Positions 25,876-41,787 of a stretch of 64,000 bases of DNA are shown here, piece by piece (position 1 is the first letter of the stretch; each line of letters begins with the position of its first letter). The stretch is taken from the NCBI RefSeq assembly GCF_900095825.1, contig NZ_LT608315.1, positions 2,045,628 to 2,109,627 of the forward strand, given 5' to 3'. Position numbers and translations under genes: made by a program. The stretch is from Acidaminococcus massiliensis. Its GTDB lineage: Bacteria > Bacillota > Negativicutes > Acidaminococcales > Acidaminococcaceae. Below the pieces are notes generated by a model that saw only the letters and a list, made by a program, of their open reading frames with translations, was not told the origin of the DNA and searched no databases.

Positions 25876-27051
25876 CTATCCTACATATGCTACGGCTTCA
25901 CACCGGTTGGCCGCACAGGCTTTGGCTGCTTCTTCCGGGGTCAGGGCATTGGTAGCCACTTTTACGTTCTTGCCGCCCTTGCGCAGCTCGATGGCCTTCT
26001 GGATGGCTTTTCCCTGGCAGCCGGGTGCCCAGGCTACGTAAATATCCCATTTGGATTCTCGGTTGAACCGGCCGTCCCGGCGCAGGGACAGGATGATCCG
26101 GTCGATGCCCATGGCAAACCCCGTCGCTGGTTCTGGATCCCCGAAAGCTTCCATCATATGGTCGTAACGCCCGCCGCCGCAGATGTTGAACCCGATCTGG
26201 GGGGCATAAGCTTCGAACACCATGCCGGTGTAATAATCGAAGTTCCGGATCAGGGACAGGTCGAAGGACAGGTACTGTTCCACCCCATAGGATTCTGCCA
26301 GTTTATAGATGGCTTTCAGGTTCTTCAGGGCATCCAGGCTCTTGGGATTCTTCACCCGGGTTTCCAGGGTATCCAGCAGGTCACGGCCGCCTTGGAGATA
26401 GAGCAGATCCCGGAACAGGTCCTTCAGTTCCTTGGGGATGAACCGTTCTGCCGCTTCTTCTAAGCCCACTGCATTGTGGCTCAGGATCATGGTCTTTACG
26501 AAGTCCGCCTGTTTCTCCGTCAGCTTGGCTTCTTCCATGAGCCCAGCCAGGAAAGCGCTGTGACCGATACTGATGAGGAAATCCTGGAGTCCGGCGGCTT
26601 TCAGGCTGCTGACGGCCAGGGCCAGCACTTCCGCATCTGCCATGGGGGCTTCCGCCCCGATCATCTCGATTCCCGCCTGGGAGAATTCGCACTGGCGGCC
26701 GGCCTGGGTCTGTTCGTGACGGAACACATTGGCGATGTAGAACAGCCGCTTCACGCCCCTATCGTTTTTCAGCCGGGTAGCCACCATCCGGGCCAGAGGG
26801 GTAGTCATTTCACTCCGGAGCATCACCGTCCGGTTGTTCCGGTCCATGAACCGCATGCTTTCATCGCTGATGCCAGCCCCGCTTAGGGCAAAAGTATCGG
26901 CGTATTCGATGGTAGGGGTGATGGCTTCATCGTAGCCCCAGGAAAGGAAATTCCCGGCGATCCGATCTTCCAGCTCCCGTTTCATCCGGGCATCTCCCGG
27001 CAGGATATCTTTGGTCCCGTAAGGGATCCGCAGTACAGTACTGTTGCTCAT
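25876..27051 (-). CDS. hisZ: ATP phosphoribosyltransferase regulatory subunit
   Basis: A 391-residue histidyl-tRNA-synthetase paralogue that forms a hetero-octamer with short HisG and senses histidine. Class II motifs are recognisable (PTIEYADTFA, MLRSEMTTPLARMVATR, FDYYTGMVFEAYAP, GGGRYDHMMEAFG). Neighbourhood and pairing with short HisG make HisZ the right call over HisS. Its ATG overlaps the upstream YerC stop. Confidence 0.96.
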   Translation of the reverse strand: MSNSTVLRIPYGTKDILPGDARMKRELEDRIAGNFLSWGYDEAITPTIEYADTFALSGAGISDESMRFMDRNNRTVMLRSEMTTPLARMVATRLKNDRGVKRLFYIANVFRHEQTQAGRQCEFSQAGIEMIGAEAPMADAEVLALAVSSLKAAGLQDFLISIGHSAFLAGLMEEAKLTEKQADFVKTMILSHNAVGLEEAAERFIPKELKDLFRDLLYLQGGRDLLDTLETRVKNPKSLDALKNLKAIYKLAESYGVEQYLSFDLSLIRNFDYYTGMVFEAYAPQIGFNICGGGRYDHMMEAFGDPEPATGFAMGIDRIILSLRRDGRFNRESKWDIYVAWAPGCQGKAIQKAIELRKGGKNVKVATNALTPEEAAKACAANRCEAVAYVG

Positions 27052-27350
27052 TTCTCGTTAGCTCCTTCAGTCAAGATGGGGATCAGGGTACGGTACCCTC
27101 CCGCTCCATAGTTCAGACAACGATTGACCCGGGATACGGTGGTGCTGCTGGCGCCCGTATCCTTGACGATCTTCGCATAGTTCTCGCCGCGATGAAGACG
27201 CACCGCCACTTCCAGCCGCTGGCTCAATGCCTTCAGCTCATTGGGGGTGCAGATATCTTCCAGGAAGGCCAGGCTGCCGTCCACATCCTGCAGCAGGGTA
27301 AAGGCTTTGGCCAGCTGTTTCAGTTCCCGTTCATTCAATCCGGCTACCAT
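27048..27350 (-). CDS. yerC: YerC/YecD family TrpR-like regulator
   Basis: A 100-residue protein with a TrpR-like helix-turn-helix (LSQRLEVAVRLHRGENYAKI then DTGASSTTVSRVNRCLNYG). YerC-family proteins often sit at the head of or near histidine genes in Firmicutes, so it may regulate this operon, though that is inferred from position. It is the first gene of the operon and overlaps hisZ by 4 bp. Confidence 0.88.
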   Translation of the reverse strand: MVAGLNERELKQLAKAFTLLQDVDGSLAFLEDICTPNELKALSQRLEVAVRLHRGENYAKIVKDTGASSTTVSRVNRCLNYGAGGYRTLIPILTEGANEK

Positions 27351-27393
27351 GATCGTAACCCCTTTCTTTTCTGGAATCTTTGCCGTTCCGGAC

Positions 27394-27461
27394 CTTTCCG
27401 GAACAATTGCTTTACTGATTTAATACTTTACTACGATGATGCGATAAATGCAAGTAGTATT
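27394..27461 (-). promoter_or_regulatory. Candidate his-operon promoter with inverted repeats
   Basis: Upstream of the YerC gene the minus strand has TTGCAT (27448-27453) and TAAAGT (27425-27430) spaced 17 bp, bracketed by TACTAC/GTAGTA inverted arms (27431-27461). The leader carries a GTTCCGG/CCGGAAC hairpin (27394-27413). I saw no T-box. The promoter is a moderate match only. Confidence 0.4.
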
Positions 27462-27500
27462 TGGGAATTTGTGAAAATTTTTTATGCGGTTTTCTCCATT

Positions 27501-27536
27501 AAAAAAGAGGCTGCTGCACGTAATGTGCAACAGCCC
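27501..27536 (-). terminator. Terminator after the FadH/BaiCD-type gene
   Basis: Stem GGCTGTTGCAC / GTGCAGCAGCC followed by six U on the minus strand. It is one of the window's GCTGCTGCAC-type terminators. Confidence 0.88.
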
Positions 27537-27542
27537 GGTCTC

Positions 27543-27588
27543 ATGAGCCGCATAGCGGCTCGGTTTCAAGTCTCGAGACCCGAGACCT
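27543..27588. repeat. Palindromic repeats beside the oxidoreductase stop
   Basis: Contains GAGCCGC-ata-GCGGCTC (27545-27561), nearly identical to GAGTCGC-aaa-GCGGCTC at 41773-41789, and a TCTCGAGACCCGAGACC palindrome resembling those at 11783 and 15462. Confidence 0.5.
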
Positions 27589-29534
27589 CAAATATCCATC
27601 CCTGCCCAATGTCCCCAATACACTGCATTGGTGATGGTGGACACCCGTGCTGCGTCTCCGATGACCCTGACAAAGGGGGCACTGTTCCGCAAAGCCTCCA
27701 CTACATCCGTCCGGGACCGCTGGCCCAGGGCGCAGATCACCGTATCCCCAGGCACCAACACCTGCTTTCCGGAAGGATCGGTGCAGAGGATACCCTTTTG
27801 GGTCACTTCTACCCCTTTGTATCCCGTGTGGACCGTGGCTGTTTTGGCGATTTCCGCCAGCAGCAAAGGACGGTGGCGCACATTGGCATCGGGGGCCAGG
27901 GTGGGACGCATTTCCACGATTTCCACCTTTTTTCCTTCCTGGCCCAGGTGGATGGCACATTCACACCCGGCCAGGCCGCCGCCGAACACCACCACATGGT
28001 CCCCCACTTTGTCTTTTTCCTTGTAGTAGTTGTTCACGATCACCACATTGTCCCCGTCCAGTCCTTTGATGGGAGGCACCAGAGGCGTGGAGCCAGCAGC
28101 GATGATCAGGGCATCGGGCTTTTCCGCCTCCACCGTTTCCGGGGTGGATTCCGTGTTCAGCCGGATCTCCGCTCCTGCCTTCCGGGCCAGCAGTTCGTAG
28201 GTATGGGCCAGCTGGTACATCTCTTTCTTGAAGGGAATGGCCTGCTCACTTTTCAGGATGCCCCCCACTTCCCCTTCTTTTTCCATCAGGATCACCCGGT
28301 GGCCCCGGCGGGCAGCGGTATAGGCGGCGTACAGGCCCCCAGGGCCTCCGCCCACCACAACCACTTTCTTCTTCACCGGTGCCGGCTGGACTTCCGTCCC
28401 GTCCAGTTCCCGTCCGATGAAGGGGTTCACCGTACACCGGCGAGTACCGGTGGCCGCCCGTTCCGCCATGCAGGTGAAGCACCGGAGACAATGGACGATT
28501 TCCTCTTCCCGGCCTTCTTCGATTTTCCGGGGCGTTTCCGGATCTGCCAGCAGCTGCCGGGCCATGTACACCACATCCGCCTTTCCGGAAGCGACGATTT
28601 CTTCCATCATGGCCGGGTCCGTGAGCCCCCCGATGGCAGCCACCGGTTTTGCTACATGCTTCTTGATTTCCGCCGCCAGGTACACATTCCGGCCGTGGTC
28701 CTCGAACATGGAGGGATGGGTGATCCCGAAAGTCTTCTGGTAAGTGCCGGCGGATACATGGATCAGGTCCGCATAGGGTTCGACGGCCTGGGCAATCTTC
28801 ACCCCTTCGTCCAGTCCGTAGCCTCCTTCCGCAAATTCCGCCCCGCTCATCCGGAACTCGATGGGGAAAAAGGGCCCCACCGCAGCCCGCACCGATTTCA
28901 GGACTTCCACCGCAAACCGGGCCCGGTTTTCCAAGGAGCCGCCGTATCCGTCCTTCCGGTGGTTGAACAGGGGGGATAGGAACTGGTTGATCAGCCAGCC
29001 GTGGCCTCCATGGATCATCACCATTTCAAAGCCCGCCCGTTTGGCCAGGCCAGCAGCATGGCCGTAGGCAGCCACGATGTCATCGATCAGCTCCTGGGTC
29101 AGGGCCCGCACCGGAACCCCATCGGCCCGGACTCCGTCACTGGGGCCCCACTGATGGAGGCTGTGCTGCTTTTCCTTATCCGTCATGTAGGTACCGGCAA
29201 ACTGACCGGAATGGGACAGTTCCAGGGAAGGGATGGCGCCATGCCGACGGATGGCGTCTGCCGTATAGGTGGCGCAGGCCAGGGAATTCAGGATGCTTTC
29301 ATCCAGATGGTAGGCATGGGAGCCGTCGGTGGCCGGATGGACCATCAGTTCCGAAACTGTGACCGCCCCGGCTCCTCCTTTGGCCCGGAGTTCATAAAAG
29401 GCCGTGGATTTAGGGCCGATGCATCCGTCATTGGTGATGTCCGTACCTCCCATGGGAGCGGAGAAGATCCGGTTCCGGAAAGTGGTGCGTCCCAAGGTGA
29501 TGGGGCTGGACAGATGGGGAAATTTGCGCTGCAT
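27588..29534 (-). CDS. FadH/BaiCD-type FMN, Fe-S, FAD oxidoreductase
   Basis: A 648-residue old-yellow-enzyme fusion. Residues 1 to about 340 are an FMN-binding TIM barrel (MIHGGHGWLINQFLSP). A cysteine cluster CLRCFTCMAE...RRCTVNP binds [4Fe-4S]. The C-terminal third has two dinucleotide folds (VVVGGGPGGLYAA and VVFGGGLAGCECA). Such enzymes reduce activated C=C bonds: 2,4-dienoyl-CoA, enoates or bile-acid enones. The substrate is not evident. GAGGAGG precedes the ATG. A LysR gene lies just upstream on the same strand with a candidate operator between. Confidence 0.93.
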   Translation of the reverse strand: MQRKFPHLSSPITLGRTTFRNRIFSAPMGGTDITNDGCIGPKSTAFYELRAKGGAGAVTVSELMVHPATDGSHAYHLDESILNSLACATYTADAIRRHGAIPSLELSHSGQFAGTYMTDKEKQHSLHQWGPSDGVRADGVPVRALTQELIDDIVAAYGHAAGLAKRAGFEMVMIHGGHGWLINQFLSPLFNHRKDGYGGSLENRARFAVEVLKSVRAAVGPFFPIEFRMSGAEFAEGGYGLDEGVKIAQAVEPYADLIHVSAGTYQKTFGITHPSMFEDHGRNVYLAAEIKKHVAKPVAAIGGLTDPAMMEEIVASGKADVVYMARQLLADPETPRKIEEGREEEIVHCLRCFTCMAERAATGTRRCTVNPFIGRELDGTEVQPAPVKKKVVVVGGGPGGLYAAYTAARRGHRVILMEKEGEVGGILKSEQAIPFKKEMYQLAHTYELLARKAGAEIRLNTESTPETVEAEKPDALIIAAGSTPLVPPIKGLDGDNVVIVNNYYKEKDKVGDHVVVFGGGLAGCECAIHLGQEGKKVEIVEMRPTLAPDANVRHRPLLLAEIAKTATVHTGYKGVEVTQKGILCTDPSGKQVLVPGDTVICALGQRSRTDVVEALRNSAPFVRVIGDAARVSTITNAVYWGHWAGMDI

Positions 29535-29587
29535 GTGATTGCCTCCTCAAAAATCATTTCTATTGTATCTGTCTTCCACCCTATCAT

Positions 29588-29623
29588 AAAAAAGAGACTG
29601 CCGTCCAGCAAGGAAGCGGCAGT
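29588..29623 (-). terminator. Terminator after the LysR gene
   Basis: Stem ACTGCCG / CGGCAGT with a long loop followed by CTCTTTTTT on the minus strand, separating the LysR gene from the oxidoreductase. Confidence 0.75.
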
Positions 29624-29626
29624 AGG

Positions 29627-29645
29627 TATCAATAAATTGTTGATA
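29627..29645 (-). promoter_or_regulatory. Candidate LysR-type operator
   Basis: The perfect interrupted palindrome TATCAA-N7-TTGATA (19 bp, containing the T-N11-A LysR-box geometry) lies directly after the LysR stop and about 95 bp before the oxidoreductase start. A LysR protein acting on the next gene would bind here. Confidence 0.5.
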
Positions 29646-29647
29646 GA

Positions 29648-30511
29648 TTATACCAGTCGGGGACAAACCGCCAGCAGCTCCTGGAACAGGGTGTCTTCCG
29701 CCCGGTTTTGGGGGCACACAAAGAACACCTGCCAAGGGGCGGTTTCCCGGAGAGGGATCTGTCGGAGAGGAGCTTCTACAGGATGGATGGCCGCATCGAT
29801 GCCGATGCCCCGACCCTCCCTGCAGAACTGGTAAATCAGGCTGCTTTCCATGGTCTTCACCGCAAAATGAGGCGTAAAGCCAAAATCCCCGCACCGCTCC
29901 GCCACATTGTGATAAATGGAAAAATGTTCGTTGAGGCACAAGAGGGGCTCCCCTTTCAAGTCTTCCAGGGACAGGCTGTCCCGGCCATAGAGAGGATGCC
30001 CTGGGTACACCACTGCTCCCACCGGCGCCCGGAACAGTTCTCGGCGAAAGAACCCCTCCGGAGCCTGCGTCCCCACGCAGAACCCGCAGGACAGGGTCCC
30101 TTCTTGGAGCAGCCGCAGGATATTTTCATTGAAATCCTCCACCCATTCCAGCCGGAATTCCGGATGCTGGGCAGCCGCCTCCTGGAGCTTCCCTATGGAA
30201 ATCACATGGAGGACCCCGCAGGCGAAGCCCATCCGCAGTCCCTGCTGCTGTCGCTTCATTTCCTGGATCCCCAACTGGAGCCGGAGCAGCTGGGCGGAGA
30301 AAGAACGGCTGTGTTCATAGAAATAGTCTCCCTCTCGGGTAGGCTCCATCCCTTTGGGAGTGCGGACAAAAAGCTTGGCCTGGAGCTCCCCTTCCAGCAC
30401 ACCGATGATCCGGCTCACCCCCTGGGGCGTCAGGAACAGCACCTTGGCCGCCTGATGGATGCTTTTCTTTTCATAAACCTGCTGGAAACAGCGGATGGCC
30501 CTGGTATCCAT
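29648..30511 (-). CDS. LysR-family transcriptional regulator
   Basis: A 287-residue LysR regulator. The N-terminal winged helix spans about residues 1-60 (AIRCFQQVYEKKSIHQAA, TPQGVSRIIGVLEGEL), followed by the two-lobed effector domain. The ATG at 30511 has AAGGAGGG upstream, so the 17-residue N-terminal extension is rejected. It is probably the regulator of the downstream FadH/BaiCD-type oxidoreductase. Confidence 0.93.
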   Translation of the reverse strand: MDTRAIRCFQQVYEKKSIHQAAKVLFLTPQGVSRIIGVLEGELQAKLFVRTPKGMEPTREGDYFYEHSRSFSAQLLRLQLGIQEMKRQQQGLRMGFACGVLHVISIGKLQEAAAQHPEFRLEWVEDFNENILRLLQEGTLSCGFCVGTQAPEGFFRRELFRAPVGAVVYPGHPLYGRDSLSLEDLKGEPLLCLNEHFSIYHNVAERCGDFGFTPHFAVKTMESSLIYQFCREGRGIGIDAAIHPVEAPLRQIPLRETAPWQVFFVCPQNRAEDTLFQELLAVCPRLV

Positions 30512-30648
30512 GCTTCTTCCCTCCTTGGGGAGGATTGTAACACGGGAGGAGTAGGGTGTCAACGGATGGAGGATAGAGAAGGCTAAGCGATTCAGTAGCT
30601 AGGCGGTTGGGTGAATTGAGTCTCTTTACTAGGTTTCCCCAATCCCCA

Positions 30649-30677
30649 TTGACAAACTGTACTTTATACGGTATCAT
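30649..30677 (+). promoter_or_regulatory. metNI promoter
   Basis: TTGACA (30649-30654) and TATCAT (30672-30677) separated by exactly 17 bp, ending about 15 bp before the SAM riboswitch. Confidence 0.8.
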
Positions 30678-30691
30678 TTAAAGCGCATTGA

Positions 30692-30799
30692 TTTCATCGA
30701 GAGTAACGGAGGGACTGGCCCAATGAAGTTACGGCAACCATCAGCGGCGCAGCCGGCTGAACGGTGCTAAGTCCACCAGGCAGTGCCTGAAAGATGAAG
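30692..30799 (+). ncRNA. SAM-I (S-box) riboswitch
   Basis: The S-box core is plain: TTCATCGAGAG, then GAGGGACTGGCCC, ATGAAG, CGGCAACC, GGTGCTAAGTCC and a closing GATGAA that pairs with TTCATC (P1: 30693-30698 with 30793-30798). It is followed by a terminator, so high S-adenosylmethionine should stop transcription before metN. Confidence 0.96.
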
Positions 30800-30819
30800 A
30801 TGAGTAAGCCCAACTGATT

Positions 30820-30849
30820 CCTCTTCACATCAGATGAAGAGGTTTTTTT
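30820..30849 (+). terminator. Riboswitch-controlled terminator
   Basis: Hairpin CCTCTTCA / TGAAGAGG followed by seven T. Its 5' arm can pair instead with the GATGAAGATGAG stretch at the end of the aptamer, which gives the expected antiterminator. Confidence 0.92.
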
Positions 30850-30871
30850 ATTTCTACGGAGGTGAACCCCC

Positions 30872-31909
30872 ATGATAGAACTGCAGCATATCGAAAAGAT
30901 CTATCATACAGCTTCAGGGGACCTACACGCCCTGAAGGATATCAACCTGACCATCAATGAAGGCGAGATCTTCGGGATCATCGGCCTTTCCGGGGCCGGC
31001 AAAAGCACCCTGGTCCGCTGCATCAACATGCTGGAAAAGCCCACCAGCGGCAAAGTGATCGTGGACGGCCAGGAAATGACCGCCCTGGGAGAAGAACAGC
31101 TGCGGAAAGCCCGGCAGAATATCGGCATGATCTTCCAGCATTTCAATCTGCTCTCCAGCCGCACGGTCTACGGCAACATCGCTTTCCCCCTGGAAATCCA
31201 AGGCATGGACAAGGCTTCCATCCAAAAGAAGGTGGCCCCCCTGCTGGAACTGGTCGGGCTCAGTGACCGGGCCGACCACTACCCCAGCCAGCTTTCCGGC
31301 GGGCAGAAACAGCGGGTAGGCATTGCCCGTGCCCTGGCCAGCGATCCCAAAGTGCTCCTGTGCGACGAAGCCACTTCTGCCCTGGATCCCCAGACCACGG
31401 AAAGCATCCTCTCCCTGCTCCGGGACATCAACAAACGGCTCCACATCACCATCGTCATGATCACCCACCAGATGAACGTGGTGAAGGAAATCTGCGACCG
31501 AGTGGCCGTCATCGAAAACGGAGAGATCATCGAACAGGGCTCCATGGTGGATATCTTCACCAATCCCCAGAAGGCTACCACCAAGGAATTCGTAGCCAGC
31601 ATCCAGCACAATGACCTGCCGGATTTCGTCAAGAAGTTGGACATCCACAAGGAATACCGGCCTGGGGACAAGGCCCTGGTGAGCCTGAGCTTCATCGGGG
31701 ACAGTGCGGGAGAACCCATCGTCTCTGTGCTGATCAAACAATACGATACCAATGTGAACATCCTCACGGCCAATATCGAGACCCTGCAGGATACCCCCTT
31801 CGGGACCCTGCTCATTGAAGTGGAAGGTGACGAGGCCCATCTGAAAAAGGCCCTGGATTACCTCCATGAAAGAAAAGTAAAAGATGAGGTGATCGGTTAT
31901 GTCTCCTAA
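30872..31909 (+). CDS. metN: Methionine ABC transporter ATP-binding protein
   Basis: A 345-residue ATPase of the D/L-methionine importer. Walker A GLSGAGKSTL (near residue 38), signature LSGGQKQRVGIARAL, Walker B VLLCDEATSALD and the H-loop MITHQMN are intact. The C-terminal extension from about residue 260 is the NIL regulatory domain that binds methionine. It follows the S-box and overlaps metI by 11 bp. Confidence 0.97.
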   Translation: MIELQHIEKIYHTASGDLHALKDINLTINEGEIFGIIGLSGAGKSTLVRCINMLEKPTSGKVIVDGQEMTALGEEQLRKARQNIGMIFQHFNLLSSRTVYGNIAFPLEIQGMDKASIQKKVAPLLELVGLSDRADHYPSQLSGGQKQRVGIARALASDPKVLLCDEATSALDPQTTESILSLLRDINKRLHITIVMITHQMNVVKEICDRVAVIENGEIIEQGSMVDIFTNPQKATTKEFVASIQHNDLPDFVKKLDIHKEYRPGDKALVSLSFIGDSAGEPIVSVLIKQYDTNVNILTANIETLQDTPFGTLLIEVEGDEAHLKKALDYLHERKVKDEVIGYVS

Positions 31910-32561
31910 TATGATCCATCTGCTGATCAAGGCCCTGGGGGAAACCCTTTACATGGTGGCCCTGTCCGCTGCCATTGCATCCCTCTTCGGCATCCCCCTA
32001 GGGGTGATCCTGACCATTACCGGGAAAGGGCACATCAAGGAAAACGCTGCCCTCCACAAAACCCTGGGCTCCATTGTGAATGCCCTCCGTTCCGTGCCTT
32101 TCATCATCCTCATGGTTGCCATCATCCCCCTGACCCGGCTGATCGTCGGTTCTTCCATCGGGACCACCGCTGCCATCGTCCCGTTGACCATTTCTTGTAC
32201 CCCGTTCATTTCCCGGATCATCGAATCCTCCCTCCTGGAAGTGGATCCAGGGGTCATCGAGGCAGCCCAGAGCATGGGAGCCAGTCCCATGCAGATCATC
32301 TGGAAAGTGCTGCTGCCGGAAGCCATGCATTCCATCGTGCTGGGCATCACCCTGGCAGTGATCAGCCTGATCGGTTCCAGTGCCATGGCCGGAGCATTGG
32401 GCGGCGGCGGCCTGGGAGACCTGGCCATCCGGTACGGCTATCAGCGGTTCCAGGCGGACACCATGGTGGCCACGGTCATCGTGCTGATTGTCCTGGTCCA
32501 GGTGGTCCAGACCATCGGGAATCGGATCTCGGCTAAATTGAATAAGACGAAAATCAAATAG
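31899..32561 (+). CDS. metI: Methionine ABC transporter permease
   Basis: A 220-residue inner-membrane permease with about five hydrophobic segments and the ABC-contacting loop around ESSLLEVDPGVIEAAQSMGA. It is the usual MetI length. The gene starts inside the metN 3' end. A terminator follows and no metQ substrate-binding gene is present, so the lipoprotein must be encoded elsewhere. Confidence 0.96.
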   Translation: MSPNMIHLLIKALGETLYMVALSAAIASLFGIPLGVILTITGKGHIKENAALHKTLGSIVNALRSVPFIILMVAIIPLTRLIVGSSIGTTAAIVPLTISCTPFISRIIESSLLEVDPGVIEAAQSMGASPMQIIWKVLLPEAMHSIVLGITLAVISLIGSSAMAGALGGGGLGDLAIRYGYQRFQADTMVATVIVLIVLVQVVQTIGNRISAKLNKTKIK

Positions 32562-32565
32562 GATA

Positions 32566-32604
32566 GGGGCTGTTGCACAGAACGTACAACGGCCCCTTTC
32601 TTTC
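32566..32604 (+). terminator. Terminator after metI
   Basis: Stem GGGGCTGTTG(CAC) / (GT)ACAACGGCCCC followed by TTTCTTTC. The roughly 85 bp from here to the next gene show nothing recognisable. Confidence 0.85.
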
Positions 32605-32689
32605 ATGTATAATAGTATTTGCAGGATTCCTAAACTGCCCTGCACTCTGCTTAAAATTTTTTAATCACGGATCTTTCTTTTATTTCTCT

Positions 32690-33490
32690 TCAGATTCCTG
32701 CCTGGTTACAATAGACGAATGCCGGTTGGCTGAAGATTTTTTGCTGTTCCATTTCCCGATACTCCAGGAACTGGCCGACTGCGCCGGAGAGCATCCTCCA
32801 ATTCCGGTAATCCTGCCAGCTGCTGCCCTGTCGGGGATCCTGTTGGGGATCAAACACCTTTTGGCTGGCGATCATCCCTGCCAGCGAAACTCCTGCGTTC
32901 AAAGGATCTTTCCAATAGGAAGCCAGCTGCTGTCCCAACTGTTGTTCATTTCCCCAGGAAGGAGACTGGAGCAGGGAGGAATGGGGATCCAGCCGCTGGA
33001 GATAAGCAGCTGGCGGCAGCGGATGCTTGAATTTGGACAAAAAGGCCGTTCCTATCCTCCTGGCAAAGGGGTCTTCATCCGGGTCGCCCTTATACAGGGG
33101 TTCAGCCAGGTACAGGCTGTCCAGATAAAAGGGATCCATACTGCCCTTCTGGGTTCCTGCGACCTTGGCATATCGGCTGCTTACCACGACCACATCGTAC
33201 CACCCAGCGGGGCTATCGAATTCCATATCCGGATCCATGCCATTGGGCAGTGCCACATGATGCTCTTTGTCCATAAAAGAATGCTTCCCCCCGGATACAC
33301 TGAGAGGATGATCCTCGGGGATTTCCATGTCTACTTCCGGATCCCTCTGAAAATCTGCCAGATACCAGGCAATCCCATGCCCCTTCAGGCCTCGGTTGTG
33401 AGACGGGTACTCCTGGTAGCGAAAAAGACGGATTGGGTGCGGGGTACCATTGAAGATCCTCATGTGGTTCAGAAGATTACTGTTTTCCAT
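32690..33490 (-). CDS. Hypothetical protein with an NGTPH-type N-terminal domain
   Basis: A 266-residue soluble protein of unknown function. By eye, residues 10-125 resemble small phage and Firmicutes proteins that begin FNGTPHPI and carry a YDVVVVSSRYA segment (here near residue 95). After that come an acidic DPDEDPFARR stretch and a Gln-rich, Trp-rich C-terminal half. AAAGGAG precedes the ATG at 33490; an extension to 33565 overlaps the promoter. It is divergent from the equally unknown 33595-35256 gene, about 100 bp away. No signal peptide is seen. Confidence 0.7.
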   Translation of the reverse strand: MENSNLLNHMRIFNGTPHPIRLFRYQEYPSHNRGLKGHGIAWYLADFQRDPEVDMEIPEDHPLSVSGGKHSFMDKEHHVALPNGMDPDMEFDSPAGWYDVVVVSSRYAKVAGTQKGSMDPFYLDSLYLAEPLYKGDPDEDPFARRIGTAFLSKFKHPLPPAAYLQRLDPHSSLLQSPSWGNEQQLGQQLASYWKDPLNAGVSLAGMIASQKVFDPQQDPRQGSSWQDYRNWRMLSGAVGQFLEYREMEQQKIFSQPAFVYCNQAGI

Positions 33491-33521
33491 ATTTATCCAC
33501 TCCTTTATTATTGCTGCCTCC

Positions 33522-33550
33522 ACTATACACGGCCGGATCCTTCCAGACAA
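33522..33550 (-). promoter_or_regulatory. Promoter of the 32690-33490 gene
   Basis: TTGTCT (33545-33550) and TATAGT (33522-33527) on the minus strand with a 17-bp spacer, 30 bp before the ATG. Confidence 0.65.
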
Positions 33551-33594
33551 AGGTAAAATAGCCATTTTCCTTATTTTTTCCTGAGGTGAACATC

Positions 33595-35256
33595 ATGACT
33601 ATGAGACAGACAAGGAAAGACGTTATCGACCTTCCTGATCCAGATAAGAACATCATGACCATCCAATCTGCAATCAACGAATGCTGGCTGCCTTTGGAAG
33701 ATTTGATGAAAAAATTCTGCGGCCCAGTTGTCCATCCCTGGCTGTACACCGGTTTCACGGAATATCCAGCATATGAGAATCTTGGCAAACAGCGGAAGGC
33801 TCGAGAAAAATATCTGCAAGATCTTTGTCTCAAAGATAAACCAAAAGGACCGGAAGAAAAGGACCATCCTGAAAATTCTTTGGATATTTTCCAGGATCCG
33901 AACGTCAAGGGATTTTTTAGGAGACATTTTATCAACAACAACAATAGCGATAGCAATACCTTAGCGAAATTCCTGTCCCCCTACCAGAACAGTTTCCAAA
34001 AGCCAAAACCCAATGACAGACATAAGCAATTATATGATGCCAACCGGCTGGCCCAGCTGTATGTGGAATATTTTTTCAGGATAAAGGCCGGTGAAATATC
34101 CACCAACCACAAAGAAGCAGCTCTTCGGTGGCATCAGGAGGACTGGTCCTTCCTGGGCAAAAGGAAATATGATTATCTCCAAATCATCCTCCAGCAGCTC
34201 TACACGTCGGAAGAAGCCCAGGAGCTCCTGGAGCTTCCCAGCCGGAAAGCTCTTGATGCCTGGATTGTAAAGGGTTCCTTCGAGGGCAGCCTTTCCCTGG
34301 TCCCTGCCGCGCCCAACGATCCCCGTCACCCCAGCTTTTATCTGTGGGAAGAAGACCTGCTGGCAGACGTGTCGCACGGGGAAGATATAAGCCCTGAACT
34401 TCGGGGCCGCTGGTACAGTCCCCTGCACCGGAAACTGTATAAAGCCATCAAATACGGATATTGGCCCCTGACGAACGCCATCCTGGATTATAAAAATACC
34501 CCATCGCCAGATACGTTGATCACCTATGATCCTGCAGAGATCCTCTACAATCGATTAAAAGTGATCATGGGAAAAGAGGGAAAGGAAAAGCTGTATACTT
34601 CCCGGCTTTACGGCCTCCAGGACCGGAAGGAGCTCGCAGCCGCCTATTATCTTCTTGCCCAGCGTGCTGAAAGGATCAAGCATGAGATAAATGACATCCG
34701 AGAGAAAGAAAGAATAAACCTGAATGCAGATGTCCGTTACAAGGAATGTGTTTCTCAGCTGCTCAGTCCGGCCATCGACTTGGCGGAATTAGAGAAAGAT
34801 GGCTTGGATGGTACTGACTGCAGAGGATTATTGGAGGATCAATGGATCGATCCTGCTGATGCCGGGGATCCCTTTCTGGACGCCCTGGAGCAGGCACAGG
34901 ATCTGACCGAAAAGATGCAAAGGATCATCCGGCTGAAGTTGGAACTCAACCGGATGATCCGCGAACCCGAGAACAGATATGAAATTTACGCAGCGTTAGG
35001 GGGAATCAACTACAACTTCCGCCCCAGACCGACATCTGAGGAAGGAAGCAAGTATGGAATTGGACCACGGACGGTGGAGCTCAGCTTCTTGCCCAGTATC
35101 GTTCCCAGAGGATTTGCCTTCCTGGGTCCAGTCCGTATCCCCTTCTGTGCTGATACAGAGGACCTGGGAAATGCAGGAACTGCTCCCAAAATCATTGCAC
35201 AGCCAGGGGAAACTCAGCCTCTTGCCCAGGTTCCATCCCAGACGATGCGCCGGTAG
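33595..35256 (+). CDS. Hypothetical protein, 553 aa, no recognised domain
   Basis: A long soluble ORF that I cannot assign. It is rich in Tyr, Trp, Lys and Glu, apparently largely helical, with an Asn-rich patch (NNNNSDSN near residue 114) and a heptad-like stretch AERIKHEINDIREKERINL. No membrane segment, signal peptide, nuclease, ATPase or HTH motif is visible. The ATG at 33595 has GAGG 8 bases upstream; a GTG at 33586 overlaps that site. It looks more AT-rich than its neighbours over the first 500 bp, suggesting possible acquisition. Its 3' end overlaps convergent dpaL by 43 bp, so the last residues may not be ancestral. Confidence 0.65.
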   Translation: MTMRQTRKDVIDLPDPDKNIMTIQSAINECWLPLEDLMKKFCGPVVHPWLYTGFTEYPAYENLGKQRKAREKYLQDLCLKDKPKGPEEKDHPENSLDIFQDPNVKGFFRRHFINNNNSDSNTLAKFLSPYQNSFQKPKPNDRHKQLYDANRLAQLYVEYFFRIKAGEISTNHKEAALRWHQEDWSFLGKRKYDYLQIILQQLYTSEEAQELLELPSRKALDAWIVKGSFEGSLSLVPAAPNDPRHPSFYLWEEDLLADVSHGEDISPELRGRWYSPLHRKLYKAIKYGYWPLTNAILDYKNTPSPDTLITYDPAEILYNRLKVIMGKEGKEKLYTSRLYGLQDRKELAAAYYLLAQRAERIKHEINDIREKERINLNADVRYKECVSQLLSPAIDLAELEKDGLDGTDCRGLLEDQWIDPADAGDPFLDALEQAQDLTEKMQRIIRLKLELNRMIREPENRYEIYAALGGINYNFRPRPTSEEGSKYGIGPRTVELSFLPSIVPRGFAFLGPVRIPFCADTEDLGNAGTAPKIIAQPGETQPLAQVPSQTMRR

Positions 35257-36410
35257 CTCTCCCGATCCGTAGCGCCTTCAGTGCTGATGCACAGGACCCG
35301 GGAATCTTTGTCCAGGCCCAGCTCCTCTCTCAGGGGTTCCTGCTCTTTGTTCCGGTACAGTTCACAGACAAAGCCGCTGGTCACCGCTCCGCTTTCTCCG
35401 GAAATCACCCTGGGGTCCCCGGGGACCGGCGCGCCCAGGATCCGCATGCCTTGGGCCGCCACCCAATCAGGGACAGAAGCAAAATGCTCGGCATGAGCTG
35501 CCAGTTCCCCCCAGCCCAAGGTACAGGGTTCCCCGCAGGCCAATCCGGCCATAATGGTGTCCAATGCCCCAGTCACAGTGTGGAGCTTCCCATCCCCGGC
35601 AGCAGCAGTACGGAAGATGCAGTCCGCCCGATTGGGTTCCACAATGGTGATCACGGGCTTCTGGCTGCCGTAATAATCGGCGAAGAATCCGGTGAGTGCC
35701 CCACTCATGGCCCCCACTCCCGCCTGGAGGAAAATGTGGGTGGGAGGCTGGGATAGAGCCTCTGCCGCTTCCAGGGCCAGGGTGGTGTACCCTTCCATGA
35801 TCCACCCGGGAATGGTTTCGTATCCTTCCCAAGCCGTATCCTGGACCAATACTCCGCCAGTTTCTTCCGCCACCCGAGCAGCATGGCGCACCGTATCATC
35901 ATAATTGAATTCCGTGATACAGGCATCGCTGCCCAAAGCCCGGATGTTCTCCAGCCTTTCCCGGGAACTTCCTTTGGGCATGAATACCCGGCTCTTCACT
36001 CCCAGGCAGTGAGCGGTCCAAGCAATGCCCCGGCCGTGGTTCCCGTCGGTGGCCGTCACAAAACACAGGTCTTTGATCTTTGCATGGACTGCAGGATCTT
36101 GGAGCAGGGCAAAGGTCATTTCTGTTATGGGGATCCCCAGTTTCTCTCCCAGGACTTGGGCCACGCAGAAACTGCCTCCCAGTCCCTTGAAGGCATTGAG
36201 GCCGAACCGGAAGCTTTCATCTTTCACATAGAACGCCTCCAGCCCCAAGTGTTTTGCCAATCCCTTCAAATCCACCAGGGGCGTGGGCGCATATCCTGGG
36301 ATAGTCCGATGGAAGTTCCGGGCCGTTTCTGCTGCCTGTCGGGTAAAAAGCCCGTCCCATTGACATTTCCCGCTGGGTTTCCGGGTCACGATCTTGATTT
36401 CGTTCTCCAT
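35214..36410 (-). CDS. dpaL: Diaminopropionate ammonia-lyase
   Basis: A 398-residue fold-type II PLP enzyme converting 2,3-diaminopropionate to pyruvate and two ammonia (YgeX family). The PLP Lys75 lies in FGLNAFKGLGGSF, followed by TATDGNHGRGIAWTA and the glycine loop QAGVGAMSGALTGF. The ATG at 36410 is better spaced from GGGAG than the one at 36416. It is last in a four-gene operon with an M20 amidohydrolase, an amino-acid symporter and an N-carbamoylase, suggesting release and degradation of acylated or carbamoylated amino acids. Confidence 0.93.
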   Translation of the reverse strand: MENEIKIVTRKPSGKCQWDGLFTRQAAETARNFHRTIPGYAPTPLVDLKGLAKHLGLEAFYVKDESFRFGLNAFKGLGGSFCVAQVLGEKLGIPITEMTFALLQDPAVHAKIKDLCFVTATDGNHGRGIAWTAHCLGVKSRVFMPKGSSRERLENIRALGSDACITEFNYDDTVRHAARVAEETGGVLVQDTAWEGYETIPGWIMEGYTTLALEAAEALSQPPTHIFLQAGVGAMSGALTGFFADYYGSQKPVITIVEPNRADCIFRTAAAGDGKLHTVTGALDTIMAGLACGEPCTLGWGELAAHAEHFASVPDWVAAQGMRILGAPVPGDPRVISGESGAVTSGFVCELYRNKEQEPLREELGLDKDSRVLCISTEGATDRESYRRIVWDGTWARG

Positions 36411-36425
36411 CGTCATGCTCCCTTC

Positions 36426-37574
36426 TTATGCTGCTAGCCGGAGTCTTACCAGCTCGGCCCAAAATTCTGCTCCCGTTGCCAATACATCATCATTGAAGTC
36501 ATAGATATTCTGATGAAGAGAGACATTTCCGCTTTTCTCTTTTCCGGTTCCCAGAAGCAGGAAACAGCCAGGCACATGTTTCAGGAAAGCGGCAAAGTCT
36601 TCCGACGCCATCCATGGCTCACAGTCTCCAAAAGTACGGTTTTCTCCCACCACCGCCTGGGCAGCCCGCACCGCATATTGGACGCATCCGGCGTCATTGA
36701 CCGTGGGGAAAAACTCATGGGTGTAGGCAAAGCTGCACTGGGCGTGGTTCATCCGACAGATTCCCTCCACAATATCCCGCATCCGATTTTCCACCAGCTG
36801 CTGGTCTTCCGGCGTGGTAGTCCGGGCATCTCCCCGTACCGTCACGGTGGTGGGGATGGCATTGTGAGCCCCATCTGTCTCGATTTCCGTGCAGGAGACC
36901 ACCACTGGACGCATGGGCGGCGCATTCCGACTGACGATGGTCTGAAGTGCCAGATAAATTTCTGCAAAAGAGGCCAGTGGGTCATTTCCTTCGTGGGGAG
37001 AAGAAGCATGGCCCCCTTTTCCAGTAATGGTGAAGGAAAAATCATCTTCGCTGGCAGCCATGCCCCCCACCCGGGTGGAAAGGGTCCCGGCCGGCAGGAA
37101 AGGCGCATTGTGGAGGCCATAGATTTCATCCATGGGGAACCGTTCGAACAGCCCGTCATCGATCATGGCCTGGGCACCCCGGCCCGGTTCTTCTGCCGGC
37201 TGAAAGATAAAGCGGACCGTGCCATTGAAATTTTTCCGATCCGCCAGCAGTTTGGCCGCTCCCAACAGCATCACCGTATGGCCGTCATGACCGCAGCCAT
37301 GCATTTTCCCCGGACACAGGGAGATATGGTCATGGCAGCTCCGTTCTGTGATATCCAGGGCATCCATATCCGCCCGGATGCCGATACAGCCTCCGCCATT
37401 CCCGCACCGGAGAGTGCCTACCACTCCGGTCCTGCCGATGCCTTCTTCGACCTGGATCCCCCAGGCCCGCATCTGTTCTGCAGTCAGCTGGGGAGCCGTT
37501 TTCTCCTCAAAGGCTGTTTCCGGATGCTGATGGAGATAATGACGCCAAGCCGTCAGCTGTTCTTTGAAATCCAT
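36426..37574 (-). CDS. M20-family N-acyl-amino-acid amidohydrolase
   Basis: A 382-residue zinc amidohydrolase of the hippurate hydrolase/IAL-ILR1/YxeP type. Metal motifs GIRADMDALDI (65-75) and MHGCGHDGHTVMLLG (91-105) and the catalytic Glu in FQPAEEPGRGA are present, with a lid dimerisation domain in the middle. It would deacylate N-acyl amino acids in the cytoplasm. It lies between the AGCS symporter and dpaL with short gaps. Confidence 0.92.
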   Translation of the reverse strand: MDFKEQLTAWRHYLHQHPETAFEEKTAPQLTAEQMRAWGIQVEEGIGRTGVVGTLRCGNGGGCIGIRADMDALDITERSCHDHISLCPGKMHGCGHDGHTVMLLGAAKLLADRKNFNGTVRFIFQPAEEPGRGAQAMIDDGLFERFPMDEIYGLHNAPFLPAGTLSTRVGGMAASEDDFSFTITGKGGHASSPHEGNDPLASFAEIYLALQTIVSRNAPPMRPVVVSCTEIETDGAHNAIPTTVTVRGDARTTTPEDQQLVENRMRDIVEGICRMNHAQCSFAYTHEFFPTVNDAGCVQYAVRAAQAVVGENRTFGDCEPWMASEDFAAFLKHVPGCFLLLGTGKEKSGNVSLHQNIYDFNDDVLATGAEFWAELVRLRLAA

Positions 37575-37595
37575 TTCAATCCCATCCTTTCTTTG

Positions 37596-38996
37596 TCAGT
37601 CAAGATCTTCTTCATCCACTTGATGGGTAAAATCCCACACCGGCCGAGCGCCAGCTTCTTTTTTGGCACTCCATTGTCCGGCATAGTCTTTCAGGGCCAA
37701 GACCACATATCTGGAAAGTCTCAGCAATGCAATCACATTGAAGAATACCATGAAGGCGCTGGCAAAATCCACCAGATCCCACACCATAGGAACTGGAGCC
37801 ACCGCACCAGCGATGATGATGGCGCAGCACAGCACCCGATAGATCGTGACAGCTTGGGGCTTCTTCACCAGGATCATCAAATTCACTTCTCCATAATAAA
37901 TATCTGCCAGCAGAGTGGTGAAACCGAACAAGAACATAGCTAGGAACACAACCCACCGGCCTATGCTTCCCAGATTGCTTTCAAAGGCCAGCTGGGTCAG
38001 CGCAATTCCCGTTTCCCCCGTACCCAGCTGATTGGAAAGCAGGATACAGAAAGCTGTACAGCTGCAGATGATGATGGTTGTAATGAAAGTCCCCAACATG
38101 GCGGCAAAGCCTTGGTTCACTGGATGGGGAACTACAGCTGTAGCATGCATGGTAGGTGCTGTGCCGTTGCCTGCATCATTGGAAAACAATCCCCGGGCCA
38201 CTCCGTACCGAAAAGCCTGCTGCACTGAATAGCCCGCCACACCTCCTGCAGCTGCCTGGCCGGAAAAGGCCCCTGTGAAAATCTGGCGGAGCATTTCCGG
38301 AAGCATGGAAGCATGGACCACCATCACCCAGATGGCCATAAGCAGGTATCCCAGAGCCATAAAGGGCACGATGTAGGATGCCACTTCTGACAGCCGCTTG
38401 ATGCCTCCGAAGATGACCAAGGCTACTAGGATCAGCAGCAGGATGCCGGCTGCCAGAGGAGAGACCGGTGCCACCCCTGTAAGAGCTACAGAAATAGAAT
38501 TGCTCTGGATCATGCAGTAGAAGAACCCGATGCCCACCAAAATGCTGATAGAATACAGGATGGACAATGCCTTGCTGTGAAGCCCCTTTTCCATATAATA
38601 AGCCGGTCCGCCCCGATAGGTCCCATCTGGATTCTTTACCCGGAACAGCTGGGCCAGCACCGCTTCCGCAAAGCTGATGGGCATTCCCAGCACGGCCGTC
38701 ACCCACATCCAGAAGATAGCTCCCGGACCGCCGGAAGCCAGGGCTGTGGCCACACCCACCAGGGATCCGGTCCCTACCTGTCCTCCCACAGCGGCACACA
38801 GAGCTCCGAATCCCGACACACTTCCCTCGGCCTTTTCATTGCCTTTCATGCTGCAGGCCAGATTGCCAAACAGCCGGGTGAAGTAGCGGAATTGGGGAAA
38901 ATGCAGCCGCAGCGTGAAAAACACCCCTGTCAGGAGCAGGATGCCCGCTACCAGCCAGCCCCAGAATACGTTGTTCATTGTGCGGATGATTTCCAT
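37596..38996 (-). CDS. AGCS-family alanine/glycine:cation symporter
   Basis: A 466-residue membrane protein with about eleven hydrophobic segments and AGCS motifs (GSLVGVATALASGGPGAIFW, AYYMEKGL, GLFSNDAGNGTAP). It imports small neutral amino acids with Na+ or H+. It sits inside the catabolic operon, so the substrate may be a modified amino acid handled by the flanking hydrolases. The C-terminal tail (about 30 residues) is hydrophilic. Confidence 0.94.
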   Translation of the reverse strand: MEIIRTMNNVFWGWLVAGILLLTGVFFTLRLHFPQFRYFTRLFGNLACSMKGNEKAEGSVSGFGALCAAVGGQVGTGSLVGVATALASGGPGAIFWMWVTAVLGMPISFAEAVLAQLFRVKNPDGTYRGGPAYYMEKGLHSKALSILYSISILVGIGFFYCMIQSNSISVALTGVAPVSPLAAGILLLILVALVIFGGIKRLSEVASYIVPFMALGYLLMAIWVMVVHASMLPEMLRQIFTGAFSGQAAAGGVAGYSVQQAFRYGVARGLFSNDAGNGTAPTMHATAVVPHPVNQGFAAMLGTFITTIIICSCTAFCILLSNQLGTGETGIALTQLAFESNLGSIGRWVVFLAMFLFGFTTLLADIYYGEVNLMILVKKPQAVTIYRVLCCAIIIAGAVAPVPMVWDLVDFASAFMVFFNVIALLRLSRYVVLALKDYAGQWSAKKEAGARPVWDFTHQVDEEDLD

Positions 38997-39014
38997 AAAG
39001 TATTCTCCCCTTTC

Positions 39015-40235
39015 TTATGCCCCGATCATTTCCCGCACCACATCCAAGAACACATTGGCCCCGTTGATGCAGGCCTGGTCCGGGGTGTATTCGGCCGGAT
39101 TGTGGCTGATGCCTTTGACGCTGGGTACAAAGATCATGGCGGTGGGACAGATCCGAGCCATCATCTGGGCGTCCTGACCGGCTCCGGACACCATCCGGCG
39201 GCATTTCAAGTTCCGGGCAGCAGCGGCTTTTTCCACTTTCTGACAAATTCCTTCATCAAAGGACACTGGATCGAAACAGGTCATCCGTTTGGCGGTGATT
39301 TCCACGCCCTCTTCCTGGGCCAGCTGTTCCAGATAGGCAGCCAGGATCTCTTCATCTCCATCCAATCTGGCCTTGTCCGGATTCCGCAGGTCGATGGTGA
39401 ATTTCGCCTCACTGGGGATCACGTTCACCGCATTGGGCTGGTAGGCCATGGTGCCGATGGTGCACACCCCGCCAGATTTTTCCACCATCTGCCGACAGAA
39501 CACATTGACTTTGGCCGCAGCCAGGCCCGCATCGTGGCGGAGCCGTGTGGGCGTAGTCCCTGCATGGTTGGCTGCTCCTTTGATGGTCACTTGCTGCCAG
39601 TGGATGCCCTGGAGATTTTCTACAGCTCCGATATCGTACCCTTCCACATCCATGATGGGGCCCTGTTCGATGTGGAGTTCCAGAAAGGCAAAAGGCTTCA
39701 GGAACCCGGGTTCCACGGTGCCCCCATATCCGATCCGCTTCAGTTCTTCCCCCAGGATGGTCCCATCCGTGCCTACAGAAGCCAGGGCTTCTTCGCAGGA
39801 AAGTCCCCCTGCGTACACCAGGCTGCCCATCATATCGGGCGAATACCGGACCCCTTCTTCGTTGGTGAACACTCCCACTACAAGAGGATGCTTGGGACGG
39901 ACCCCTTGTTCCTGGAGGGTTTGGCACAGTTCGATGCCAGCCAGCACCCCCAGACAGCCGTCATACTGACCGGCATTGATCACCGTATCGATGTGGGACC
40001 CCACCATCATGGGGGTTTCTCCCTTGTTTTCCGGCGTTTCCCAGATGCCGAAGATATTCCCGATCCGGTCCACCACTACCTGGAGACCAGCTTCCTCCAT
40101 CCATGCTGCTACCTGATCCCGGCCCTGCCGATTGGTATCACTGGCCGCCAGCCGGATCCGCCTGCCATCCTCTCCAATGCCGATTTTTCCCAAAGTATTG
40201 ATATGTTCCATCAGACGCTTTCCATTGATTTCCAT
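39015..40235 (-). CDS. N-carbamoyl-L-amino acid hydrolase / allantoate amidohydrolase family
   Basis: A 406-residue Zn-dependent M20/M28-type amidase of the hydantoinase/carbamoylase family. Metal ligands include His81 in GSHIDTV and Asp92 in YDGCLGVLAG, the Glu pair in FTNEEGVRYSPDM, and the His in GISHNPAEYT near the end. It would cleave carbamoyl or ureido groups from amino acids. AAGGAGG precedes the ATG. It is the first gene of the operon, divergent from an AraC regulator. Exact substrate is not determined. Confidence 0.92.
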   Translation of the reverse strand: MEINGKRLMEHINTLGKIGIGEDGRRIRLAASDTNRQGRDQVAAWMEEAGLQVVVDRIGNIFGIWETPENKGETPMMVGSHIDTVINAGQYDGCLGVLAGIELCQTLQEQGVRPKHPLVVGVFTNEEGVRYSPDMMGSLVYAGGLSCEEALASVGTDGTILGEELKRIGYGGTVEPGFLKPFAFLELHIEQGPIMDVEGYDIGAVENLQGIHWQQVTIKGAANHAGTTPTRLRHDAGLAAAKVNVFCRQMVEKSGGVCTIGTMAYQPNAVNVIPSEAKFTIDLRNPDKARLDGDEEILAAYLEQLAQEEGVEITAKRMTCFDPVSFDEGICQKVEKAAAARNLKCRRMVSGAGQDAQMMARICPTAMIFVPSVKGISHNPAEYTPDQACINGANVFLDVVREMIGA

Positions 40236-40273
40236 ACTGTATACCTCCTTGGACTCCCTTTCTTGATGGTTTC

Positions 40274-40299
40274 ATTATAAGAAATCCCTAGAAGGGATT
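40274..40299 (-). promoter_or_regulatory. Operon -10 box and adjoining inverted repeat
   Basis: On the minus strand a TATAAT (40274-40279) lies about 40 bp before the carbamoylase gene. Immediately upstream is an AATCCC-TAGAA-GGGATT inverted repeat (40283-40299), between -10 and -35 positions, a natural place for a regulator to bind. Confidence 0.5.
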
Positions 40300-40331
40300 C
40301 TATGCGAATCCTGATGAAAAATATCACTAAA

Positions 40332-40359
40332 TTGCGTTTTTTGAAAAATCTGTTATACT
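40332..40359 (+). promoter_or_regulatory. Promoter of the AraC-family gene
   Basis: TTGCGT (40332-40337) and TATACT (40354-40359) spaced 16 bp, 41 bp before the ATG. Confidence 0.6.
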
Positions 40360-40399
40360 GGAACCAAATCCATCTTCTTCAGACGAAAGGAGTTTTTCC

Positions 40400-41296
40400 A
40401 TGCAGGTCACCAACATCCCAGTGGATGCCAGAAACCGGGAATCCACCCGCCACGGGACCCATGGATTTCCCATGGCTGTCTACAATTCCATCCTAAGCCG
40501 CAATGTACTGGGTTATACCCGGCTCCACTGGCATGAAGAACTGCAGTTCTGTGCCGTAGTCCAGGGTACTGTGACCTTTTCCGTCAACGAAGCCAGCTGG
40601 CAGCTTGAGACCGGAGACGGCATCTTCATCAACAGCGGTTATCTCCACATGGCCCGCCCCCTGGGAAATCCGGATGCCGGCTACATTTGCTTGGATATCC
40701 ATCCCCGGCTGCTCTGCGGATTCCCCGGCTCCGTACTGGAACAAGACTATGTGCTTCCGGCCCTCTCAGATCCTGTACTGACTGCCCGGCCTCTATATCA
40801 AAGGGTCCCTTGGCAGGCGGATGTTCTCCAGAAGATCCGTGAAATCTACCAGGAAAGTGAAACAAAAAGACCGGGCTGGGAACTTTTTGCCACAGCCCGG
40901 CTCTATGAAATTTTCGCTGCCGTCCTCTGCCACCAGCCATCGGACGAGTTCCAGACACGGAAATGGTCCCGGGCCAATACCGTGGCCCAGCGGATCCTCA
41001 GCTACCTGACAGCCCATTATGGGGAAAAAATCACCCTGGCTCAAATAGCCGCTTATGCCTCCTATACGGAAAGCGAATGCTGCCGCATCTTCAAACGGTT
41101 CACGGGCGAATCCATCTTTGCCTATCTCCGGGAACTGCGCTTGGAACAGAGCGTCCGACTGCTGGATTCCACCGACCAGTCCATCAGTGAAATTGGAGAA
41201 AACTGTGGGTTCCGCTCCCCCAGTTACTACATAGAAGCCTTCCGTCAGCAGTTCCACTGTACGCCCTTCCAGTACAGGAAGAAAAAGCGGACTTGA
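40400..41296 (+). CDS. AraC-family regulator with cupin sensor domain
   Basis: A 298-residue regulator. The N-terminal cupin (HWHEELQFCAVVQGTVTFSV, about residues 34-90) would bind a small ligand; the C-terminal AraC domain has two helix-turn-helix units (KITLAQIAAYASYTESECCR and SISEIGENCGFRSPSYYIEA). GAAAGGAG precedes the ATG. Divergent placement makes it the likely activator of the carbamoylase-symporter-amidohydrolase-dpaL operon. Confidence 0.92.
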   Translation: MQVTNIPVDARNRESTRHGTHGFPMAVYNSILSRNVLGYTRLHWHEELQFCAVVQGTVTFSVNEASWQLETGDGIFINSGYLHMARPLGNPDAGYICLDIHPRLLCGFPGSVLEQDYVLPALSDPVLTARPLYQRVPWQADVLQKIREIYQESETKRPGWELFATARLYEIFAAVLCHQPSDEFQTRKWSRANTVAQRILSYLTAHYGEKITLAQIAAYASYTESECCRIFKRFTGESIFAYLRELRLEQSVRLLDSTDQSISEIGENCGFRSPSYYIEAFRQQFHCTPFQYRKKKRT

Positions 41297-41300
41297 CTCT

Positions 41301-41693
41301 TCACTCTTCACTACTCTTCTCTGCTTCCGCCTCCTGCTCTGGACAGGTGATGTCGATGAGGAGTTCGATCATGTGGTGGAGGAGCCACACTTCCTCGGTA
41401 TTGGCGGCTTTATAGTACATTTCTTTCCCGGCCCGGCGGCTGATGATGAGGCCGTTTTCCCGGAGGATCTTCAAATGATGGGACAGAGCTGGACTGCTCA
41501 TGTGCATCAGTGCCGACAGGTTGATGACGCATTCTTCCATATGACACAAAAACCAGAACAGTTTGATCCGATTGGCATCCGCCAGGCTGCTGAACAGCCC
41601 AGACACCGCAGAAAAGTTGGCGTTTTCCGGCAGATCTTTCAAGATATAATTGATATTTTCTCCATGATTGTGGGGCAGCTGATTCTCAGCCAT
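41301..41693 (-). CDS. ArsR/SmtB-family transcriptional regulator
   Basis: A 130-residue winged-helix regulator. The fold is seen from ADANRIKLFWFLCHMEECVI through the recognition helix MSSPALSHHLKILRENGLI to RRAGKEMYYKA. Cysteines in LCHMEECVINLS sit where ArsR-type metal sites often lie, but the canonical ELCVCDL motif is degraded. An N-terminal His-containing tail (LPHNHGENIN) is present. The 3' end meets the convergent AraC gene within 5 bp. Its target is not obvious. Confidence 0.9.
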   Translation of the reverse strand: MAENQLPHNHGENINYILKDLPENANFSAVSGLFSSLADANRIKLFWFLCHMEECVINLSALMHMSSPALSHHLKILRENGLIISRRAGKEMYYKAANTEEVWLLHHMIELLIDITCPEQEAEAEKSSEE

Positions 41694-41734
41694 AACAATC
41701 CCTCCAATAGTCGTTGTTGTTTTTATTATACCAC

Positions 41735-41768: not shown

Positions 41769-41787
41769 TAGTGAGTCGCAAAGCGGC

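Follow-up and report, generated by a model that had tools for sequence, protein, structure and literature searches.

Two divergent genes of Acidaminococcus massiliensis, here called orfA and orfB, are very probably accessory DNA that arrived by horizontal transfer and now sits where two rearranged blocks of the chromosome meet. Acquisition, already raised as a possibility in a first-pass annotation of the window (the whole stretch of 64,000 nucleotides analyzed here), is supported by a break in synteny at the locus, the absence of both genes from eight congeners, the codon usage of orfB, and the presence of an orfB homologue on an AT-rich insertion in Megasphaera. The acquisition history is well supported, while the functions proposed for orfA and orfB are inferred. 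On present evidence, we see mainly one more orphan locus of acquired origin, with a clear scar at its junction.

Layout, composition, and chromosomal setting of the pair

The gene orfA (32690-33490, minus strand) encodes an uncharacterized protein of 266 aa and orfB (33595-35256, plus strand) one of 553 aa. They diverge from a shared intergenic region of 104 bp (33491-33594). orfA starts with the ATG at 33490 and orfB with the ATG at 33595, preceded by AAAGGAG and GAGGTG, respectively, both plausible ribosome-binding sites; a mechanical list of open reading frames also contains longer starts for orfB, at 33565 and 33586. When the six frames were compared by the codon usage of the window, using a reference set that was chosen mechanically and includes some false open reading frames, the annotated frame scored best for orfA (0.658 versus 0.445-0.588) as well as for orfB (0.593 versus 0.458-0.539 for the other five). 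Both are real genes, and orfA also has a homologue in another genome of the class, G327. The host genome comprises 2.67 Mb in four contigs.

By Pfam, the left neighbors of the pair are metN (ABC_tran and NIL) and metI (BPD_transp_1), and the right neighbors are dpaL, two M20 peptidases, and a sodium:alanine symporter. In the case of dpaL (35214-36416, minus strand), Pfam assigns the PALP fold only, and the gene name is a reading shared by the first-pass annotation and ourselves. The 3' ends of orfB and dpaL overlap by 43 bp. The divergent arrangement, the positions of the open reading frames, the gap of about 100 bp, and the overlap with dpaL are thus all as first described. The intergenic region contains a promoter-like pair, TTGTCT-17-TATAGT, directed toward orfA (33550-33522); four promoter-like sites were counted in the region scanned versus 2.6 (SD 1.4) in shuffles, which is no evidence by itself.

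The pair fills a gap between two syntenic blocks. Nine genomes of the genus were compared, namely that of the host and those of eight congeners (G001-G008). Positions 23704-32573 of the window are collinear with G006 at 89 to 90% identity, ending 12 bp beyond the metI stop, and positions 35226-43490 are collinear in pieces with G004 (73-76%). The 2.65 kb in between, where collinearity with G006 and G004 breaks, form a species-specific stretch (32574-35225). The dpaL gene of G004 is located about 166 kb from metI, and in the congeners compared, the blocks flanking the pair either lie at distant places or are lacking. Neither orfA nor orfB was found in any of the eight.

The flank downstream of metI (window 32561 onward) appears as a variable join across the congeners. 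By reading, genes of the pilus-assembly type come after metI in G006 and G007 and other genes in the remaining six, among which G003 and G005 look alike (histidine-type). When one gene of the G006/G007 pilus-type cluster was searched in the genome of the window, nothing better than a 33% match turned up, at another place. In the stretches that were read, metI had no metQ immediately behind it.

The composition of the locus was assessed on several scales. The pair segment has 49.4% GC, compared with 56.4 and 55.6% for its flanks, and 58 of 615 windows are as low, so that the value is low but not extreme. The beginning of orfB is indeed AT-rich, as noted from the start: its first 600 nt have 43.5% GC versus 54.6% for the window, and 41 of 1268 windows of the same size are as low. 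A comparison of codon usage with eight neighbor genes, an analysis that had been proposed for this locus, gave a codon fit of 0.541 for the orfB core, 0.477 for its last 97 residues, and 0.615 for orfA. The eight neighbors themselves ranged from 0.592 to 0.738 when each was left out in turn; on the same scale, an IS3 transposase scored 0.525 and an AraC-type gene 0.538. The codon usage of the orfB core is thus poorer than that of all eight neighbor genes and near that of the IS3 transposase, i.e. atypical. The value of orfA lies inside the neighbor range, which counts against the acquisition reading. An apparent excess of the word GGATC in the window (169 occurrences versus 148 in a Markov expectation) was near expectation and was dropped.

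The right-hand border carries a scar. At 35081-35187, the 3' end of dpaL is present a second time in degenerate form, in the same orientation as dpaL (minus strand) and 26 bp downstream of the dpaL stop (75.5% identity over 94 bp, E 1e-9; the local score was 90, whereas 200 single-base shuffles reached 46 at most). This relic may be what is left of a second dpaL, or else a duplicate resulting from insertion at the gene end; bearing on the first option, G002 and G003 each contain two full-length dpaL matches. The C-terminal tail of orfB (34963-35256, plus strand; from about residue 457 to residue 553) crosses the relic and stops within dpaL. The Megasphaera homologue barely aligns with it, and the tail looks noncoding because its codon fit is 0.477, against 0.541 for the core. 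It probably corresponds to read-through into the relic and the dpaL 3' end, the simplest reading being that the joining deprived orfB of its own stop codon. Together, the relic and the read-through tail illustrate how acquired DNA gets stitched into a chromosome.

Near the end of the orfB core, there is an inverted repeat (34922-34960, GGATCATCCGG...CCGGATGATCC), which may be due to chance or be an old 3' end signal. Terminal repeats of 9 or 10 bases were not found, nor were any words common to the ends of the present insertion and of that in Megasphaera, and the stretch showed no integrase.

orfB and its Megasphaera homologue

The orphan character attributed to the pair was confirmed for the collections that we searched. 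Matches of the two proteins did not exceed noise in Pfam (where orfB gave the best E value, 0.096) or PHROGs, and PADLOC returned no family at E values up to 1 for orfA, orfB, or the Megasphaera homologue. Defence-gene models gave no match among nine other window proteins scanned either. Phage (50,697 records) and plasmid records contained no match to orfA or orfB at E values up to 1, nor to the orfA homologue and the 485-aa protein of G327. Queries with orfA, the Megasphaera protein, the two G327 proteins, and the profiles of orfA and orfB retrieved no relative from viral contigs, in scans that are pattern-based and in which a single protein query reaches close relatives only. A literature search, by titles only, yielded nothing concerning these proteins. 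With this locus, two protein families are added that rise above noise in none of Pfam, PHROGs, and PADLOC, each with one traceable relative.

Among 380 genomes of the class, orfB was found in two, its own and that of Megasphaera sp. MJR8396C (G065), and the same two were recovered among 100 relatives; a first contig scan with orfB alone had given no match. A two-sequence orfB profile applied to 398 phylum genomes retrieved these two together with four weak matches (E 0.0013-0.03), of which two have internal stops. Along with nine weak matches to orfA described below, these were treated as chance (13 in all). Three of the 13 were identified by reading: L051 (G543) and L053 (G615) as GGDEF/HD-GYP-type signaling proteins and L042 (G675) as a glycosyltransferase.

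The Megasphaera protein (532 aa; NZ_KQ958203.1, L034 8637-10235) is also uncharacterized. In a single comparison, it aligns with orfB over 249 columns at 27% identity (E 7e-18), and the local score of the whole-length comparison was 210, as against a maximum of 81 in 500 shuffles. The aligning part corresponds to the orfB core (33595-34962, plus strand; about residues 1-456). The gene occupies a different place, between a mutM-polA-like pair (by reading) and an alpha/beta-hydrolase gene, and faces a divergent ORF of 90 aa. It lies on a segment of 2490 bp (L034 8414-10903) that is replaced by 235 bp in another genome of the genus, G095, with flanks that are 84 to 89% identical. The segment has 33.1% GC and its flanks 52.6 and 54.9%; it is clearly a foreign-looking replacement.

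We considered the possibility that orfA and orfB are ancient, vertically inherited genes that have been lost nearly everywhere in the class, as could be proposed from the fact that all relatives found, including Megasphaera, lie in this one class. Yet, each gene occurs in only 2 of the 380 class genomes, at unrelated places. Moreover, the GC content of the Megasphaera copy is about 20 points lower than that of its flanks, and a genome in which these flanks are 84 to 89% identical does not have the copy. We regard such an origin as most unlikely.

A unit of about 60 residues, with the pattern YSxEE...W...YYxxEEDLL, is present once in orfB (34171-34386, plus strand; residues 193-264) and twice in the Megasphaera protein. 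By eye, it resembles the winged helix of excisionase or MerR-type proteins, with a YSxEExxxxL helix, a turn, a second helix containing W, and the YYxxEEDLL motif. orfB differs from these in that it has no profile match and is much larger than the well-known excisionases, and no recombinase was seen in the stretch. Neither the orfB unit nor either of the two in its homologue matched a Pfam family, and a search of solved structures with the three units gave E values of 0.47 and 3.5 only. Structure prediction, another check that had been proposed, did yield AlphaFold2 models for both proteins, but of low confidence: the mean pLDDT was 34.6 for orfB, modeled with its one homologue, and 31.0 for orfA, modeled alone. 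A DNA-binding fold thus received no support from a profile, a solved structure, or a confident model. A Pfam match of orfB to NNH5 (E 0.096 for the whole protein and 0.028 for its first 192 residues) was too weak to be retained.

The 90-aa ORF opposite the Megasphaera gene (L034 10393-10665; 93 aa from an upstream TTG) belongs to no Pfam family. It was rejected as a relative of orfA, since 299 of 300 shuffles reached its score against orfA and 231 of 300 its score against the G327 homologue.

orfA, its homologue, and the phage question

orfA was found in 2 of the 380 class genomes, its own and G327, and in 1 of the 100 relatives, again its own. The 398 phylum genomes contained, besides the host copy, nine weak matches (E 0.006-0.044), of which five have internal stops; those in G684, G582, and G576 have none. 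The G327 protein (217 aa, L083 7234-7887) shares 33% identity with residues 4 to 196 of orfA (E 8.8e-12; local score 164 versus a maximum of 67 in 500 shuffles) and lacks the C-terminal part of orfA. Common to both are the motifs FNGTxHP near the N terminus, YDVxxVSxxYA, and PLYxxDPDxxPxAxRxG.

The homologue belongs to a row of genes (L083 6910-9091) consisting of a small ORF of about 66 aa, the homologue itself, a coiled-coil gene whose start overlaps the stop of the homologue, and a Sel1-repeat gene; a gene of 485 aa faces this row on the other strand. The pair stretch has 44.7% GC, versus 53.3% for the genes at its left. By reading, the small ORF is membrane-spanning in appearance. We rejected the idea that the C terminus of orfA represents a fusion with the coiled-coil gene, as 220 of 300 shuffles reached the score. 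An Xre-like HTH in the 485-aa protein (Pfam E 0.057) was also too weak.

The N terminus of orfA had initially been taken for an NGTPH-like phage-associated domain. A viral family is known for its N-terminal NLTPH motif, and we collected 30 viral contigs by DNA pattern, of which 25 loci gave usable proteins. These proteins (L086-L115) are about 100 to 155 aa long and also contain a conserved IVS motif (YIVS). The N-x-T-P-H motif is present in orfA (FNGTPHPI, compared with NLTPHAI in the viral family), while the G327 homologue (FNGTNHPV) has not kept the P. With hmmsearch, an NLTPH profile picked up the motif of orfA (E 0.0039 in a two-sequence set) and gave the G327 homologue an E value of 0.6; the hhalign probability was 3.7%. 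After removal of the motif, orfA fell below the shuffle mean against the viral family (127 of 150 shuffles reached its score), and the G327 homologue was slightly above it (30 of 150), being aligned at YIVS. The likeness therefore consists of a short N-terminal motif in orfA and an IVS-type motif further on in its homologue; there is no significant similarity beyond the motif, and orfA is longer. What stands of the proposed domain is the short motif, the remainder not rising above shuffles. A second phage-related match, to the virion morphogenesis protein TIGR01635 of NCBIfam, was sub-threshold (E 0.0024; 17.9 bits versus a cut-off of 37.65), and this model had no match at E 0.1 in any of the nine genomes of the genus.

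These two matches are what speaks for a phage remnant, in which orfA would derive from a viral protein of the NLTPH or tail-completion type and orfB from a phage regulator. We consider this very unlikely in view of the shuffle results just given for orfA and its homologue, the absence of TIGR01635 matches at E 0.1 from the nine genus genomes, and the lack of any match in the 50,697 phage records or in the pattern-based viral-contig scans, by which mostly close relatives are found.

Relation of the two genes and possible roles

The pair had been thought to form a two-gene module. This was not borne out, as the detectable homologue of orfA is in G327 and that of orfB in Megasphaera sp. MJR8396C, i.e. 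in different genomes. The two genes do occur together in their own genome, but homologues of both were found in no other among the 8 congeners, 100 relatives, 380 class genomes, and 398 phylum genomes, a limited sample. This comes close to the situation, named in the first-pass annotation as arguing against a module, in which the two genes never occur together elsewhere.

A large gene stands opposite a smaller one at all three loci (the window, Megasphaera, and G327), but homology links one gene at a time. The 485-aa gene of G327, although it shows similar-looking motifs, is not detectably related to orfB: the score of 37 was below the shuffle mean of 42 and was reached by 405 of 500 shuffles, and profile comparison gave a probability of 0.3%. 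Its score against the Megasphaera protein (45) was reached by 226 of 500 shuffles. The repeat-unit model gave it an E value of 0.037, in a set of five sequences.

To account for this arrangement, we propose, tentatively and as somewhat short of probable, that the locus is an acquired cargo pair consisting of a DNA-binding regulator, orfB, and an effector, orfA. The cargo DNA would have been acquired and placed at the join of rearranged blocks, downstream both of metNI and of dpaL. orfB would be a mainly helical DNA-binding protein, its repeat unit forming an excisionase-type winged helix; it would bind the shared 104-bp region and control orfA as well as itself. orfA would be the effector of this self-regulated cargo pair, possibly serving in conflicts with phages or rival elements. 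Divergent layouts of this kind are often self-regulated, and the regulator reading is suggested by this habit, by the divergent layout itself, by the likeness of the repeat unit as seen by eye, and by the promoter-like pair directed toward orfA. Taken separately, the functional part of the proposal, with orfB as regulator and orfA as effector of a self-regulated pair, is unlikely. If the module reading were true, the pair would represent a hitherto unrecognized kind of cargo in these bacteria.

A competing explanation is that orfA and orfB are two unrelated acquired orphan genes, a rearrangement-prone join having gathered separate pieces without any functional link. This is a serious possibility, though on balance a doubtful one. 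It agrees with the distribution of the homologues over different genomes, each with other neighbors, with the more atypical codon usage of orfB compared with orfA (0.541 versus 0.615), and with the variation of the flank after metI among congeners. The large-opposite-small layout recurring at all three loci (532 aa and 90 aa in Megasphaera, the 485-aa gene in G327) argues against it, but such a layout is common in bacteria and the loci are few.

Returning to the cargo pair, a broader version would assign orfA- and orfB-type genes to a class of small mobile conflict modules, not described so far, in Negativicutes, each consisting of a large, repeat-containing DNA-binding protein and a divergent, exchangeable small partner, lodged between housekeeping genes and without an integrase of its own; we hold this class to be improbable. 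Of note, the window also contains an IS3-type transposase gene (47287-48132, minus strand; rve, HTH_21, and rve_2), which lies about 12 kb away from the pair, where the DNA is AT-rich (42% GC).
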